Assembly (NCBI RefSeq): GCF_000021565.1
Contig: NC_012440.1
Location: 1,008,210-1,072,209 of the forward strand
DNA length: 64,000 nucleotides
From: Persephonella marina EX-H1
GTDB lineage: Bacteria > Aquificota > Aquificia > Aquificales > Hydrogenothermaceae
Reading direction: 5' to 3'
The position numbers and the translations under genes are program-made. How positions within the stretch are numbered: the stretch's first letter is position 1; every line of letters starts with the position of its first letter. Shown here in pieces: positions 11,875 through 16,820 of this stretch. The notes beneath the pieces are model-generated. The model was not told where the DNA came from. It saw nothing but the letters and a program-made list of their open reading frames with translations, and searched no databases.

Positions 11875-12945
11875 ATGGCACTTCAGGGTGTAATTGACAG
11901 ACTAAAAAAAACATCTCTTGAGGAGATAGGTGTAAGCTTTTCTCTTGCTGACATACTGAGGGATATGAAGATAGAAGGTAACAGTATCTATATAAAACTA
12001 TTTTCTCCTTCAGATAAGTATCACGATTTTCTAAAGAAAAAAGCGGAACAGGTTTTAAGAGAGATAGGTGCAGAAAATGTAGATATTGAGTTTACAAATG
12101 AGCCACCAAAGGCAACAGCTCCACAGACACCACCTCCACAGGCACAGCAGAATCCTTTTGAGAACAAGAGAAGAATCCCTAAGGTTAAAAAGGTTATAGC
12201 GGTTGCCTCAGGTAAAGGGGGCGTTGGAAAATCAACTGTTGCTGTTAACCTGGCTGCTGCCTTAAAAAGAATGGGTTACGATGTAGGTTATCTTGATGCT
12301 GATATGTATGGACCTTCAGGCCCTACAATGCTTGGAGCTAAAGATAAACAGGTCTTAGCAAGGGAAGACGGTAAACTTATACCACCTGTTGCCCACGGAA
12401 TAAAGATGATGTCCATAGGACTTTTACTCCCATCTGAAGATACACCTGTAATATGGAGAGGACCTGTACTATTTAAGGCTTTATCACAGTTCCTTTTTGA
12501 TATAGACTGGGCTGAAGATCAGCTTGATTTCCTTATAATAGACCTTCCACCAGGAACAGGTGATGTTCAGATAACACTGGGACAGACAGCTGAGATAGAT
12601 GGTGCGGTTATCGTCACAACACCTCAGGATGTAGCTCTTATAGACGTTAAAAAGGGTATCCAGATGTTTAACGAGGTTATGATACCTGTGATAGGAATTG
12701 TTGAGAATATGAGTTACTTTGTGTGCCCAGACTCGGGAAAAAGATACGAGATCTTCGGAAAGAGCAGAACTGAAGAGGTTGCCAAACAGTACAATACAGA
12801 GATCCTTGGAAAAGTACCTATAGAACCTAAGGTTGCTGAGTTTGGTGATCTTGGAATACCCGTTGTTTTAGCAAAAGAGGATTCAGAATCTTCAAAGGCG
12901 TTTATGAGTATAGCAGAGAGAATAATAAAAAAGTTAACCGTTTAA
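11875..12945 (+). CDS. mrp: Mrp/NBP35-type P-loop ATPase, iron-sulfur carrier
   Basis: A 356-residue Mrp/ApbC protein, a cytoplasmic carrier that hands iron-sulfur clusters to apoproteins. An N-terminal MIP18/DUF59 domain covers residues 1-75, a proline-rich linker 78-95, and the deviant Walker A ASGKGGVGKST about 111-121. The family's C-terminal CxxC, which bridges a cluster between subunits, is incomplete: residues 284-287 are CPDS, so the second cysteine is Ser. Mrp proteins without CxxC exist, so it may bind clusters differently. AGGAGG precedes the ATG. It is followed after 17 bases by the cysteine-desulfurase homologue. Confidence 0.9.
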   Translation: MALQGVIDRLKKTSLEEIGVSFSLADILRDMKIEGNSIYIKLFSPSDKYHDFLKKKAEQVLREIGAENVDIEFTNEPPKATAPQTPPPQAQQNPFENKRRIPKVKKVIAVASGKGGVGKSTVAVNLAAALKRMGYDVGYLDADMYGPSGPTMLGAKDKQVLAREDGKLIPPVAHGIKMMSIGLLLPSEDTPVIWRGPVLFKALSQFLFDIDWAEDQLDFLIIDLPPGTGDVQITLGQTAEIDGAVIVTTPQDVALIDVKKGIQMFNEVMIPVIGIVENMSYFVCPDSGKRYEIFGKSRTEEVAKQYNTEILGKVPIEPKVAEFGDLGIPVVLAKEDSESSKAFMSIAERIIKKLTV

Positions 12946-12962: not shown

Positions 12963-14198
12963 ATGTTAAAGAAAAGAGGTTATGTTTATGCAGACCATCT
13001 GGCAACAACACCTGTTGCAGATGAAGTTTTAGAGGCAATGCTTCCATACTATAAAGATAAATTTGGAAATCCAACCTCCCTTCATCAGTTTGGTGTGGAT
13101 GCAAAAAAAGCGATAAACAGAGCAAGGGAGCAGATAGCCCAGCTCTTAAATATAAGCAGACCTGAGGATATAGTTTACACCTCAGGAGCTATAGAGGCTA
13201 ATAACCTTGCTATAAAAGGATATGCTAAGGCTCCAGGTATAACAAGAAGAGGTAAGCATATCGTTGTCTCAGCTATAGAACACCACTCAATCCTCCACTC
13301 ATGTAAATCACTTGAGAAGGAAGGATTTGAGATAACATATGTCCAGCCTGATCAGTACGGGATAATTCATCCTGATAAGCTTGCAGAAGCTGTAAGAGAG
13401 GATACCATACTTGTTTCTGTAGGTTATGCAAACAGAGAGATAGGAACACTTCAGGATATGCCTGCTCTTGTTAAGGCTGTAAAGGAGAAAAATCCCAGAA
13501 CTGTTTTCCATTCAGACATAGCTGCTGCTGTAGGTCATACACCTGTTGACCTTGAAGGCTGGGGAGTTGATATGGCATCATTCACAGGTCATTACTTCTA
13601 TGCTCCTAAAGGTGTAGGAGGACTGTATGTTAAAAAAGGTGTAAGGCTCAAGCCTTTAATTGAAGGTGGAATACAGGAAGGTGGTAGAAGAGCCGGAACA
13701 GAACCTGTGCCGGAGATTGTTGGTATGGGAGCAGCTGCTGAACTTGCAATAAAAGAGATGGATGACAGGGTTAACAGACTTAAAAAGCTGAGAGACAAAC
13801 TTAAAAAGGGAATAGAAGAGAAGATAGATTATATACAGTTTACAGGTCATCCTGAGAAAAGACTTCCAAATCATCTTTCACTTATTGTTATGTACATTGA
13901 AGGTGAGGCTATGCTCCTAATGCTGAACTACAAAAAGATATACACAGCATCAGGATCAGCATGTGTATCTTTTGCATTAAAACAGTCTCACGTTCTGGCT
14001 GCTATAGGTATTGATAAGGAAGCATCTAACGGATCTATAGTTTTCTCACTTGGAAGGGAAAACAGTGAGGAAGACATAGATTATATAATTGAGGAGTATC
14101 CAAAGGTTATACAGAGATTGAGAGAGATATCTCCTTTTGGTCCTGAAAACTGGGATCAGTTTGCCAAAAAGGCTGACAAGTATAAACATGTGAGATAA
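12963..14198 (+). CDS. IscS/NifS-like protein lacking the PLP lysine (pseudo-desulfurase)
   Basis: A 411-residue class V aminotransferase-fold protein closely following IscS/NifS: DHLATTPV at the start, SGAIEANNLAIKG, YANREIGT and a catalytic-loop cysteine in GSACVSFALKQS (Cys334). Several cofactor and substrate residues are changed. The Schiff-base lysine of SGHK is Tyr211 in TGHYFYAPKGVG, the phosphate-binding Thr of GAT is Ile, the Asp-x-x-Gln glutamine is Ala, and the Arg of SIRFSLGR is Val. Cysteine desulfuration is therefore unlikely, while the loop Cys is kept. Archaeoglobus IscS likewise lacks this lysine and shares a cluster with IscU. Placed between mrp and iscU; GAGGAGG precedes the ATG. 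Confidence 0.85.
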   Translation: MLKKRGYVYADHLATTPVADEVLEAMLPYYKDKFGNPTSLHQFGVDAKKAINRAREQIAQLLNISRPEDIVYTSGAIEANNLAIKGYAKAPGITRRGKHIVVSAIEHHSILHSCKSLEKEGFEITYVQPDQYGIIHPDKLAEAVREDTILVSVGYANREIGTLQDMPALVKAVKEKNPRTVFHSDIAAAVGHTPVDLEGWGVDMASFTGHYFYAPKGVGGLYVKKGVRLKPLIEGGIQEGGRRAGTEPVPEIVGMGAAAELAIKEMDDRVNRLKKLRDKLKKGIEEKIDYIQFTGHPEKRLPNHLSLIVMYIEGEAMLLMLNYKKIYTASGSACVSFALKQSHVLAAIGIDKEASNGSIVFSLGRENSEEDIDYIIEEYPKVIQRLREISPFGPENWDQFAKKADKYKHVR

Positions 14199-14218: not shown

Positions 14219-14398
14219 TTACCCTGAAGGTGCGTAGTAGCATCTTTTAGGTGACTCAATCTTTCCTTCCTTCTTAAGTTTTTTAATTGCCTTCTCAACC
14301 TCTTTTTTATCAAGTCCTGTAAGCTCGGCTATCTCGCCTGATCTTAAAGGCTTTCCTGCTTTCTGCATAGCTTCCAGAACCTGCTGTTCAATACTCAT
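14219..14398 (-). CDS. Small winged-helix DNA-binding protein
   Basis: A 59-residue protein read leftwards from ATG 14398 (GGAGGG upstream) to the stop at 14219. Residues 3-50 fit a minimal winged helix: EQQVLEAMQKAG, then KPLRSGEIAELTGLDKKEVEKA as helix-turn-helix and KKLKKEGKIESPKRCYY as wing, a pattern seen in MarR, FeoC and archaeal TrmB-like mini-regulators. The single Cys lies in the wing. It sits on the opposite strand in the gap between the desulfurase-like gene and iscU, divergent from iscU, so it is a natural candidate regulator of that operon. The ligand is unknown. Confidence 0.72.
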   Translation of the reverse strand: MSIEQQVLEAMQKAGKPLRSGEIAELTGLDKKEVEKAIKKLKKEGKIESPKRCYYAPSG

Positions 14399-14470
14399 AG
14401 AAACCCTCCTGAATTAGTTTTATAATTTATATTTCGTTAACAGGTTAATATGATTTAACTCATTGAGTAA

Positions 14471-14527: not shown

Positions 14528-14986
14528 ATGTTTGAGTACACAGAGAAAGTGATGGATCATTTCATGAATCCGAGAAACCTTGGAGAGATACCAAACCCAG
14601 ATGGATATGGACAGTGTGGTAATCCTTCATGTGGTGACGCAATGCTTTTTACTATAAAAGTAAATAAAGAGACAGATGTTATAGAGGATGTTAAGTTCAA
14701 AACATTCGGTTGTGGATCAGCTATTGCTGTTTCATCTGTTTTAACTGAGATGGTTAAAGGAAAACCTATAGATTATGCATTAAACCTTACATACAAAGAG
14801 ATATTTGAGGAACTTGGAGGTCTTCCACCTCAGAAGATACACTGTACAAACCTTGGACTTGAGACATTACATGTTGCTATAAAAGATTACCTTTTAAAAC
14901 AGGGAAGAGTTGAGGAGGCTGCAAAAATACCAGACTGTATAGAAGAAGAGGAAGAAGAAGGTATTGATTTAGAACATGTTGGGTAA
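14528..14986 (+). CDS. iscU: Iron-sulfur cluster scaffold IscU
   Basis: A 152-residue IscU/NifU N-terminal scaffold on which Fe-S clusters are built. All three ligand cysteines are visible: CGNPSCGD with its Asp, KTFGCGSAIAVSS, and KIHCTNLG. The C-terminal acidic extension after residue 138 (EEEEEEG) resembles the Aquifex IscU. A strong GGAGGAGG site lies seven bases before the ATG. The 3' end overlaps the PP-loop gene by 11 bases, starting a six-gene unit (iscU, PP-loop, tusA, DUF1858-like, nifU-C, aroE). The nearest desulfurase homologue is the lysine-lacking one upstream. Confidence 0.96.
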   Translation: MFEYTEKVMDHFMNPRNLGEIPNPDGYGQCGNPSCGDAMLFTIKVNKETDVIEDVKFKTFGCGSAIAVSSVLTEMVKGKPIDYALNLTYKEIFEELGGLPPQKIHCTNLGLETLHVAIKDYLLKQGRVEEAAKIPDCIEEEEEEGIDLEHVG

Positions 14987-16034
14987 GATGAAAGGTAAAA
15001 AAGCTGTAGCTTTATACTCTGGAGGTCTTGATAGTACGCTTGCGATAAAGCTTATCCAGAATCAGGGTATAGATGTTACAGCAGTCCATTTTTATACAGG
15101 GTTCTGTATAACTGAGACAAAAAGAAGACGTGGTGAGAAAAAGGAAGACGGATCTCACTACATGAATCCAGCACTGAAGTACGCTGCAAAATACGGTTTC
15201 AAACTTGAGATAGTTGATATATCTGATGAGTACTTCAATATAGTCACAAATCCTAAATACGGTTACGGCTCAAATATAAATCCATGTATTGACTGCAGGG
15301 CTTTCATGTATAAGAAAGCCAGAGAGATTATGGAAGATATTGGGGCAGACTTCCTTGTCTCAGGTGAGGTTTTAAACCAGAGACCTATGAGCCAGCACCT
15401 TAAAGCTATGAAGATTATAGAAAGGGAAGCCGGTGTCGAAGGTCTTGTTGTAAAACCATTATCCGCAAAAGTTTTACCTCCAACAATTCCTGAGATAAGG
15501 GGATGGGTGGACAGGAATAAGCTAGAAGGTATAGTCGGAAGAAGCAGAAAGAGACAGCTTGAGCTTGCAAAACAGTTCGGGATAGATGAGTACGAACAGC
15601 CTGCAGGAGGATGCTGTTACCTCACAGATGAGAATTTTGCAAGGAAGTACAATGAGGTTATATCATTCCAGGGAAGCATAAGCAGGGATGATCTTTACCT
15701 GCTGACTATAGGAAGACATTTCAGACTTCCTTCCGGAACAAAGGTTATAGTAACAAGAAATGAAGGTGAGGGAAGATTTATCAGAGGACTGAGTAAAAAT
15801 TACTGGTTCTTTGAGCCTGTTGGAAAAGGTGCCGTAGCTATAGCAAAGCCTGTTGAGGATAGAGATCTTACAGATGATGAGATAAAAGCTGTTGCCGATC
15901 TTGTGGCAAGGTACTGTAAAACGGATGAAAACGGAAGAATTAATATTAAATACTCTTCACCACACGGTGAAAAAGAAGGTATAATTTTAGGAGAAAGACT
16001 GAAGGAAGAAAGACTTGAAAGCTGGAGGATATAA
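14976..16034 (+). CDS. PP-loop ATPase, MnmA/ThiI-like sulfurtransferase
   Basis: A 352-residue adenylating enzyme with the PP-loop SGGLDST near residue 15, used by tRNA thiolases to activate the target base. Cysteines cluster in GFCITE, NPCIDCRAF and AGGCCYLTD; such pairs serve as sulfur acceptors or cluster ligands in thiolation enzymes. It resembles proteins often labelled tRNA methyltransferase/thiouridylase in epsilonproteobacteria. A C-terminal region after about residue 245 may bind RNA or the carrier. ATG 14976 gives the overlap with iscU; ATG 14988 is an alternative. Co-transcription with tusA suggests persulfide sulfur is its substrate. The exact modification is unknown. Confidence 0.75.
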   Translation: MLGKMKGKKAVALYSGGLDSTLAIKLIQNQGIDVTAVHFYTGFCITETKRRRGEKKEDGSHYMNPALKYAAKYGFKLEIVDISDEYFNIVTNPKYGYGSNINPCIDCRAFMYKKAREIMEDIGADFLVSGEVLNQRPMSQHLKAMKIIEREAGVEGLVVKPLSAKVLPPTIPEIRGWVDRNKLEGIVGRSRKRQLELAKQFGIDEYEQPAGGCCYLTDENFARKYNEVISFQGSISRDDLYLLTIGRHFRLPSGTKVIVTRNEGEGRFIRGLSKNYWFFEPVGKGAVAIAKPVEDRDLTDDEIKAVADLVARYCKTDENGRINIKYSSPHGEKEGIILGERLKEERLESWRI

Positions 16035-16285
16035 TGGCTGAATTAGAAAACATAAAACCTGATATAACACATGATGCTACAGGAACATACTGCCCTATAC
16101 CGATAACAGAGCTTGCAAAGGTGATGAGACAGGCAAAAAAAGGTCAGATTGTTGAGCTCTTGGCTGATGACGAAGGGGCAATTCAGGATGTACCGGCATG
16201 GTGTGAGACAACAGGTAATGAGTTTCTTGGATACAAAGAAGAAGATGGTGTATATATATTTTATGTAAAGAAAACACAGGACTGA
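16034..16285 (+). CDS. tusA: TusA-family sulfur carrier
   Basis: An 83-residue TusA (SirA-like) protein that carries sulfur as a persulfide on the cysteine of the CPIP motif (Cys20, DATGTYCPIPITEL). The rest matches the two-layer alpha/beta fold, including a second cysteine in PAWCETTGNEFLGY, a pattern seen in many TusA proteins. It overlaps both neighbours by one base, so translation is coupled with the PP-loop enzyme, its likely partner. In Aquificota TusA also serves sulfur oxidation, but no hdr or sox genes are here. Confidence 0.9.
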   Translation: MAELENIKPDITHDATGTYCPIPITELAKVMRQAKKGQIVELLADDEGAIQDVPAWCETTGNEFLGYKEEDGVYIFYVKKTQD

Positions 16286-16539
16286 TGGTAAAGATGAGAA
16301 TAACAGAGGACATTAAGGTTTTTCATCTTCTTGAGGAGTATCCTGAAAGTGAAGAGGTTGTTAGAAAGTACTTTGCATACTTCTACCAGAACAGGCTTGT
16401 TGATATCGCCCTTAAAAGGCTGAGTATAAAGGGAGCTTTTAATGTCCTTGATATACCTCAGGAAAAAAGAGAACAGTTTTTCAGGGAACTTTACGAAAAA
16501 CTAAATTTAGAGATGCCGAGAAATAACAATATAGAATAG
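16285..16539 (+). CDS. DUF1858-like small protein
   Basis: An 84-residue protein beginning MVKMRITEDIKVFHLLEEYPESEEVV, which fits the DUF1858 pattern (a short helical domain often found near hybrid-cluster or iron-sulfur proteins). Unlike many relatives it has no cysteines. ATG 16285 overlaps the tusA stop; ATG 16294 is also possible. Being within the iscU operon it probably assists sulfur or cluster handling, but its biochemical role is not known. Confidence 0.65.
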   Translation: MVKMRITEDIKVFHLLEEYPESEEVVRKYFAYFYQNRLVDIALKRLSIKGAFNVLDIPQEKREQFFRELYEKLNLEMPRNNNIE

Positions 16540-16550
16540 AGGTATTAAAG

Positions 16551-16820
16551 ATGGTTGAAGATTTAAAAACAAAAGAGCAGGAAGTTGAGGAGGTTTTAAA
16601 TAAGATCCGTCCTGCTTTAGCTTTAGATCAGGGAAATATTAAACTGATTAAGGTAGAAAATAACGATGTTTATCTTGAGCTTCTTGGTGCATGCAGTACA
16701 TGTCCTGTTCCTGACATAACAATGAATGATGTGATAATAACAACGATAAAACATCTTCTTCCATGGGTTGAGACCGTTCATATAGGACAGAATAAGTTTG
16801 AGCTGAACAACTCAATATAA
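16551..16820 (+). CDS. NifU C-terminal domain protein (Nfu-type)
   Basis: An 89-residue stand-alone Nfu domain. The CxxC motif lies in GACSTCPVPDITM, which holds a [4Fe-4S] cluster between two subunits for delivery to apoproteins. The N-terminal VEEVLNKIRPALALDQGNIKL matches the usual start of the domain. GAGGT lies 10 bases before ATG. It follows the DUF1858-like gene by 11 bases and precedes aroE by one base. With iscU it separates scaffold and carrier roles that NifU joins in one chain. Confidence 0.9.
   Translation: MVEDLKTKEQEVEEVLNKIRPALALDQGNIKLIKVENNDVYLELLGACSTCPVPDITMNDVIITTIKHLLPWVETVHIGQNKFELNNSI

Follow-up and report, generated by a model that had tools for sequence, protein, structure and literature searches.

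A lysine-less IscS homologue of Persephonella marina as a probable non-desulfurase partner of IscU, and the linkage of such proteins to TusA and DsrE

The gene at positions 12963..14198 (plus strand) of the analysed window, a stretch of 64,000 nucleotides from Persephonella marina EX-H1, encodes a 411-aa homologue of IscS/NifS which lacks the lysine that binds pyridoxal phosphate (PLP); the open reading frame and its product are real. Judged from its sequence, the protein is almost certainly not a cysteine desulfurase. We hold with fair confidence that it acts as a PLP-independent platform for IscU which contributes Cys334, and that persulfide would be supplied by TusA/DsrE proteins. The genome consists of a chromosome of 1,930,284 bases and a second replicon of 53,682 bases.

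In an alignment to E. coli IscS, which served as reference for residue numbering, Tyr211 (codon 13593..13595, plus strand) occupies the position of the PLP lysine K206. As the earlier note on this DNA had stated, the phosphate-binding T76 is replaced by Ile77, Q183 by Ala188 and the substrate-carboxylate R354 by Val360, and the loop cysteine is intact (Cys334, codon 13962..13964, plus strand, corresponding to E. coli Cys328). Overlooked at that time were two further alterations, from the PLP-contacting N155 to Arg158 (codon 13434..13436, plus strand) and from S203 to Thr208, as well as the retention of H104, D180, H205 and T243. A second lysine standing in for K206 was ruled out, as the alignment places none at or beside the Schiff-base position. 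The protein stays under the cut-offs of the NCBI families TIGR03402 (463.8 bits against 530.75) and PRK14012 (389.6 against 548). Residues in contact with IscU (E309, G310, E347) are conserved; those known from E. coli to contact TusA (W45, E49, D52) are not.

The same state was encountered throughout two families among 136 Aquificota genomes, namely that of P. marina (f1) and one placed in Aquificaceae (f2), with orthologues at 62-88% identity, and no orthologue was found in families f3-f5. All 88 aligned orthologues, which comprise 79 distinct sequences, carry Ile, Arg, Thr and Val at positions 76, 155, 203 and 354, and H104, D180, H205, T243 and C328 are equally invariant; position 206 carries either Tyr (44 sequences) or Leu (44), and position 183 either Pro or Ala. 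By this alignment, the substitution pattern lies far beyond chance expectation. Pairwise dN/dS values range from 0.011 to 0.043, which together with the conservation in 88 orthologues indicates that the degenerate state is fixed and under selection and does not represent decay; a pseudogene or a gene in relaxed decay could thus be ruled out. Some genomes of Aquificaceae possess a second IscS paralogue (L114, L115, L116, L117, L097) which is degenerate in a different way, with the pattern THRDGD..EC. and the loop cysteine within SPC or TPC; L097 retains Tyr at the position of K206.

The gene is embedded in a set of genes for Fe-S cluster assembly and sulfur transfer. Directly upstream lies a gene for an Mrp/ApbC-type Fe-S carrier (11875..12945, plus strand), which was found in this place in 19 of 20 genomes, the contig of the twentieth ending too soon. 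The neighbouring IscU announced by the earlier note is present at 14528..14986 (plus strand) with a complete set of cysteine, aspartate and histidine cluster ligands, and is encoded alongside the lysine-less IscS in seven of the eight complete f1 loci with intact contigs. A 59-aa winged-helix ORF is situated between the two genes on the minus strand (14222-14401); it scores above the cut-off for HTH_24 and below that for Rrf2, recurs at 83% identity in two genomes of genus g7 and possibly represents a local regulator. IscU is followed on the plus strand by a ThiI/MnmA-like PP-loop (HUP) protein with a C-terminal NFACT-R_2 domain (14976..16034), by TusA with its CPxP motif (16034..16285), for which we propose the role of persulfide donor, by an 84-aa protein resembling DUF1858 below threshold (16285..16539) and by a protein with an Nfu-type NifU C-terminal domain (16551..16820). 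The HUP protein, which displays the motifs NPCIDC and GGCC, is on sequence grounds a probable tRNA sulfurtransferase and may thiolate tRNA with sulfur received from TusA. The small DUF1858-like gene comes after TusA in most f1/f2 genomes examined.

The f1 gene order was found to be Mrp, lysine-less IscS, IscU, HUP, TusA, the 84-aa DUF1858-like protein, Nfu and AroE. In f2, Mrp and the lysine-less IscS stand apart from IscU-HUP-TusA, an order that is kept in 13 of 13 Aquificota genomes tested from both families. TusA shares an operon with the lysine-less IscS in P. marina, and DsrE is not adjacent in Aquificota: a DrsE_2 gene occurs away from the locus in all 13 genomes with the lysine-less protein, P. 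marina included, and in neither of two genomes without it.

Outside the Aquificota the linkage to TusA and DsrE is strong. A scan of 84,980 species yielded 80 IscS loci, 14 of which lack the lysine, five in Aquificota and nine in other lineages (Chloroflexota, 'Deltaproteobacteria', Actinomycetota, Rokubacteria, Stahlbacteria and archaea). TusA and/or DsrE, usually together with IscU, were detected near the lysine-less IscS at all nine of these loci, and near canonical IscS at none of the 66 loci of the same scan. The archaeal type shows the order TusA, DsrE, lysine-less IscS, IscU, and the type nearest to Aquificota the order lysine-less IscS, IscU, zinc ribbon, DrsE_2, TusA. When the sample was widened to paralogues from the same genomes, to Dehalococcoidia and to an archaeal phylum, TusA/DsrE accompanied 27/29 lysine-less against 0/16 canonical loci in the Dehalococcoidia and 29/30 against 0/17 in the archaeal phylum. 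Altogether, TusA and/or DsrE were present at 65 of 69 distinct lysine-less loci outside Aquificota, sampled as best matches to lysine-less queries, and at none of 114 canonical loci, which include paralogues from the same genomes (Fisher p = 3e-45, uncorrected for kinship). As the TusA HMM had been seeded from lysine-less loci and might have introduced a bias, the loci were recounted with E. coli TusA alone, and the result was unchanged. IscU adjoins the lysine-less IscS at most of the non-Aquificota loci. The linkage could in part reflect common ancestry or shared sulfur metabolism. Within the literature covered, which is incomplete, no description of a cluster of TusA, DsrE and IscS-IscU was found, and we provisionally regard this genomic context of lysine-less IscS as new.

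At four Dehalococcoidia loci (L280, L288, L289, L290) two IscS genes lie close together, at three of them along with two IscU genes. These loci apparently pair one lysine-less with one canonical copy and offer a natural system in which both kinds can be compared.

The other desulfurases of Aquificota bear directly on the question of sulfur supply. P. marina itself encodes an intact NifS-type desulfurase (L001, C2:192833-193912) with the motifs SGHK and RFSFG, and an intact protein of this type also occurs in most f1 genomes. However, 20 of 23 f1/f2 genomes checked for IscS, NifS and SufS types revealed no canonical desulfurase, a number to be read as a lower bound, with ten of the 20 being single-contig assemblies; three of these ten carry the second, degenerate IscS paralogue. 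The remaining class-V matches of the 20 genomes resemble AGXT-type proteins, glycine dehydrogenase and other aminotransferase-fold proteins in score and length, by which they were sorted, the sequence having been read for the AGXT-like protein of P. marina only. IscU was found in all nine genomes that were searched for it among the 20. SufS was absent from the 136 Aquificota genomes, and SUFBD proteins were found only in f3-f5 and never in f1 or f2, so that the lysine-less IscS and SUF machineries are mutually exclusive in Aquificota. SUF or SMS as a backup in f1/f2 was ruled out, since neither was found. Short SUFBD proteins (about 315 aa; L120, L121 and others) were seen only in Aquificota families without the lysine-less IscS. 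The f1/f2 organisms without a canonical desulfurase thus appear, as far as their gene content tells, to assemble clusters without cysteine desulfuration by such an enzyme.

We propose that the protein is a PLP-independent relic of a cysteine desulfurase which has been retained specifically to work with IscU. Through the conserved surface of IscS it would bind IscU, and it would offer Cys334 as sulfur acceptor or as temporary fourth cluster ligand, and would itself take no sulfur from cysteine. TusA from the same operon would bring persulfide sulfur to Cys334 or straight to IscU, having been loaded from inorganic sulfur, with DsrE proteins assisting in other lineages. Such a relay is in our estimate moderately likely. 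With the loss of the TusA-contact residues, TusA may bind the protein in another way or have IscU as its target. We infer the inactivity of the protein, the direction of sulfur flow and the cluster ligation. The earlier note had read the protein as a structural partner or sulfur acceptor and not a desulfurase, which is well supported by sequence, conservation, the Archaeoglobus precedent and an Aquifex co-crystal, and had postulated another sulfur source, to which the relatives without canonical desulfurase and the TusA/DsrE linkage point as well. Taken as a whole, its interpretation finds partial support; what it did not foresee were the intact NifS-type desulfurase in the genome, the family-wide nature of the trait, TusA in the operon and the Aquifex orthologue among known structures.

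It is conceivable, if rather unlikely, that the protein does no more than dock IscU and ligate the cluster, that free sulfide enters IscU directly and that TusA supplies the HUP protein for tRNA thiolation. The position of the latter between IscU and TusA and the loss of the TusA contacts would agree with this, as would the finding that H2S substitutes for IscS, and not for IscU, in anaerobic E. coli (PMC13015791). However, TusA/DsrE are also linked to lysine-less IscS-IscU in lineages in which no HUP protein appears among the neighbouring genes that were read, and linkage to canonical IscS was never observed (0/114 loci). The canonical desulfurase of P. marina, encoded elsewhere, could also feed the IscU of the operon, which counts against the relay and would leave the lysine-less protein as an auxiliary subunit. 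We consider this improbable in spite of the intact NifS-type protein in P. marina and most f1 genomes, because at least 20 f1/f2 genomes keep the lysine-less protein without any canonical copy and an enzyme of the L001 type hence cannot be the general donor. Very improbable is a desulfurase of unusual mechanism, with non-covalently bound PLP or another catalytic base. In its favour, the Asp and His that in canonical enzymes hold the PLP ring are kept in 88/88 orthologues. Against it, the residues replaced comprise the PLP lysine, the phosphate-binding Thr, the Asn, the Gln and the Arg for the substrate carboxylate, just the positions restored in a series of reverted structures, and A. fulgidus IscS is inactive for lack of the lysine (PMC7585200).

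The number of lysine losses that a tree suggests depends on the columns considered. A quick tree with the active-site columns united all lysine-less sequences, whereas trees without these columns displayed two lysine-less clades, one of the Aquificota and Chloroflexota type and one of the archaeal type, and none of the sampled bootstrap trees without them united all lysine-less proteins. A single origin was not rejected by the AU test (p = 0.33).

Cysteine desulfuration is commonly regarded as the step by which sulfur in general enters ISC assembly. The chances seem to us about even that lysine-less IscS is the sign of a widespread, undescribed bacterial and archaeal variant of ISC, in which TusA/DsrE relays replace cysteine desulfuration and with which much of Aquificaceae would live without a cysteine desulfurase. 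In lineages with IscU and an IscS-shaped partner and no desulfurase, sulfur supply becomes directly testable, and TusA and DsrE are named candidates for it.

Among known structures, the P. marina protein is best matched by a single 406-aa 'cysteine desulfurase' that has been deposited in seven sequence variants (9wfy, 9wfe, 9wfb, 9wf8, 9wew, 9wer, 9wep). Entry 9wfy possesses the degenerate residues and contains IscU in the same crystal; in the tree it is identical to the protein of a genome (G001) which we take to be Aquifex aeolicus. In the other entries reversions accumulate: 9wfe restores Lys and Asn, 9wfb adds Arg, 9wf8 Gln, 9wew Thr, 9wer a neighbouring Ala and 9wep additional residues. 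The series is a stepwise reversion of the Aquifex orthologue towards a desulfurase, and the disabled state of the orthologue and its complex with IscU are thus already under study. No publication on the series was found within the incompletely covered literature. The Aquifex-type protein is about 65% identical to that of P. marina and likewise has Ile, Arg and Val at the lost positions, whereas it carries Leu instead of Tyr at K206 and Pro instead of Ala at Q183. Unlike in Aquifex, the genes for the lysine-less IscS and IscU are adjacent in P. marina.

With the E. coli complexes of IscS-IscU and IscS-TusA (PDB 3lvl, 3lvj) the P. marina protein shares the fold, the cysteine loop and the partner IscU, and TusA is a sulfur carrier both there and in the proposed system. 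In E. coli, where IscS has separate surfaces for TusA and IscU (PMC2854127), IscS generates the persulfide from cysteine and hands it on to TusA, whereas the reverse flow is proposed here. The precedent of A. fulgidus, cited in the earlier note, is borne out by the literature: its IscS is inactive because the lysine is replaced by Asp, and its cysteine is a ligand to the cluster of IscU; IscS1 of M. acetivorans is also without the lysine (PMC7585200). Structures exist for A. fulgidus IscS2-IscU (PDB 4eb5, 4eb7) and for the D199K variant (4r5f). The A. fulgidus protein resembles that of P. marina in being lysine-less, encoded beside IscU, provided with the loop cysteine and linked to TusA/DsrE; it differs in having 46% identity, Asp in place of the lysine, and Thr76 and Asn155 kept, and by the trees it probably belongs to a separate clade. 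One genome encodes an IscS with 99.7% identity to PDB 4eb5; the order there is DsrE-IscS-IscU, and around a second lysine-less copy it is TusA-DsrE-IscS-IscU, so that the linkage covers the organism of the A. fulgidus structures. The P. marina protein itself is a further member of an already published type with a published archaeal precedent, and the A. fulgidus IscS-IscU structures gain a possible sulfur donor, encoded beside that very gene.
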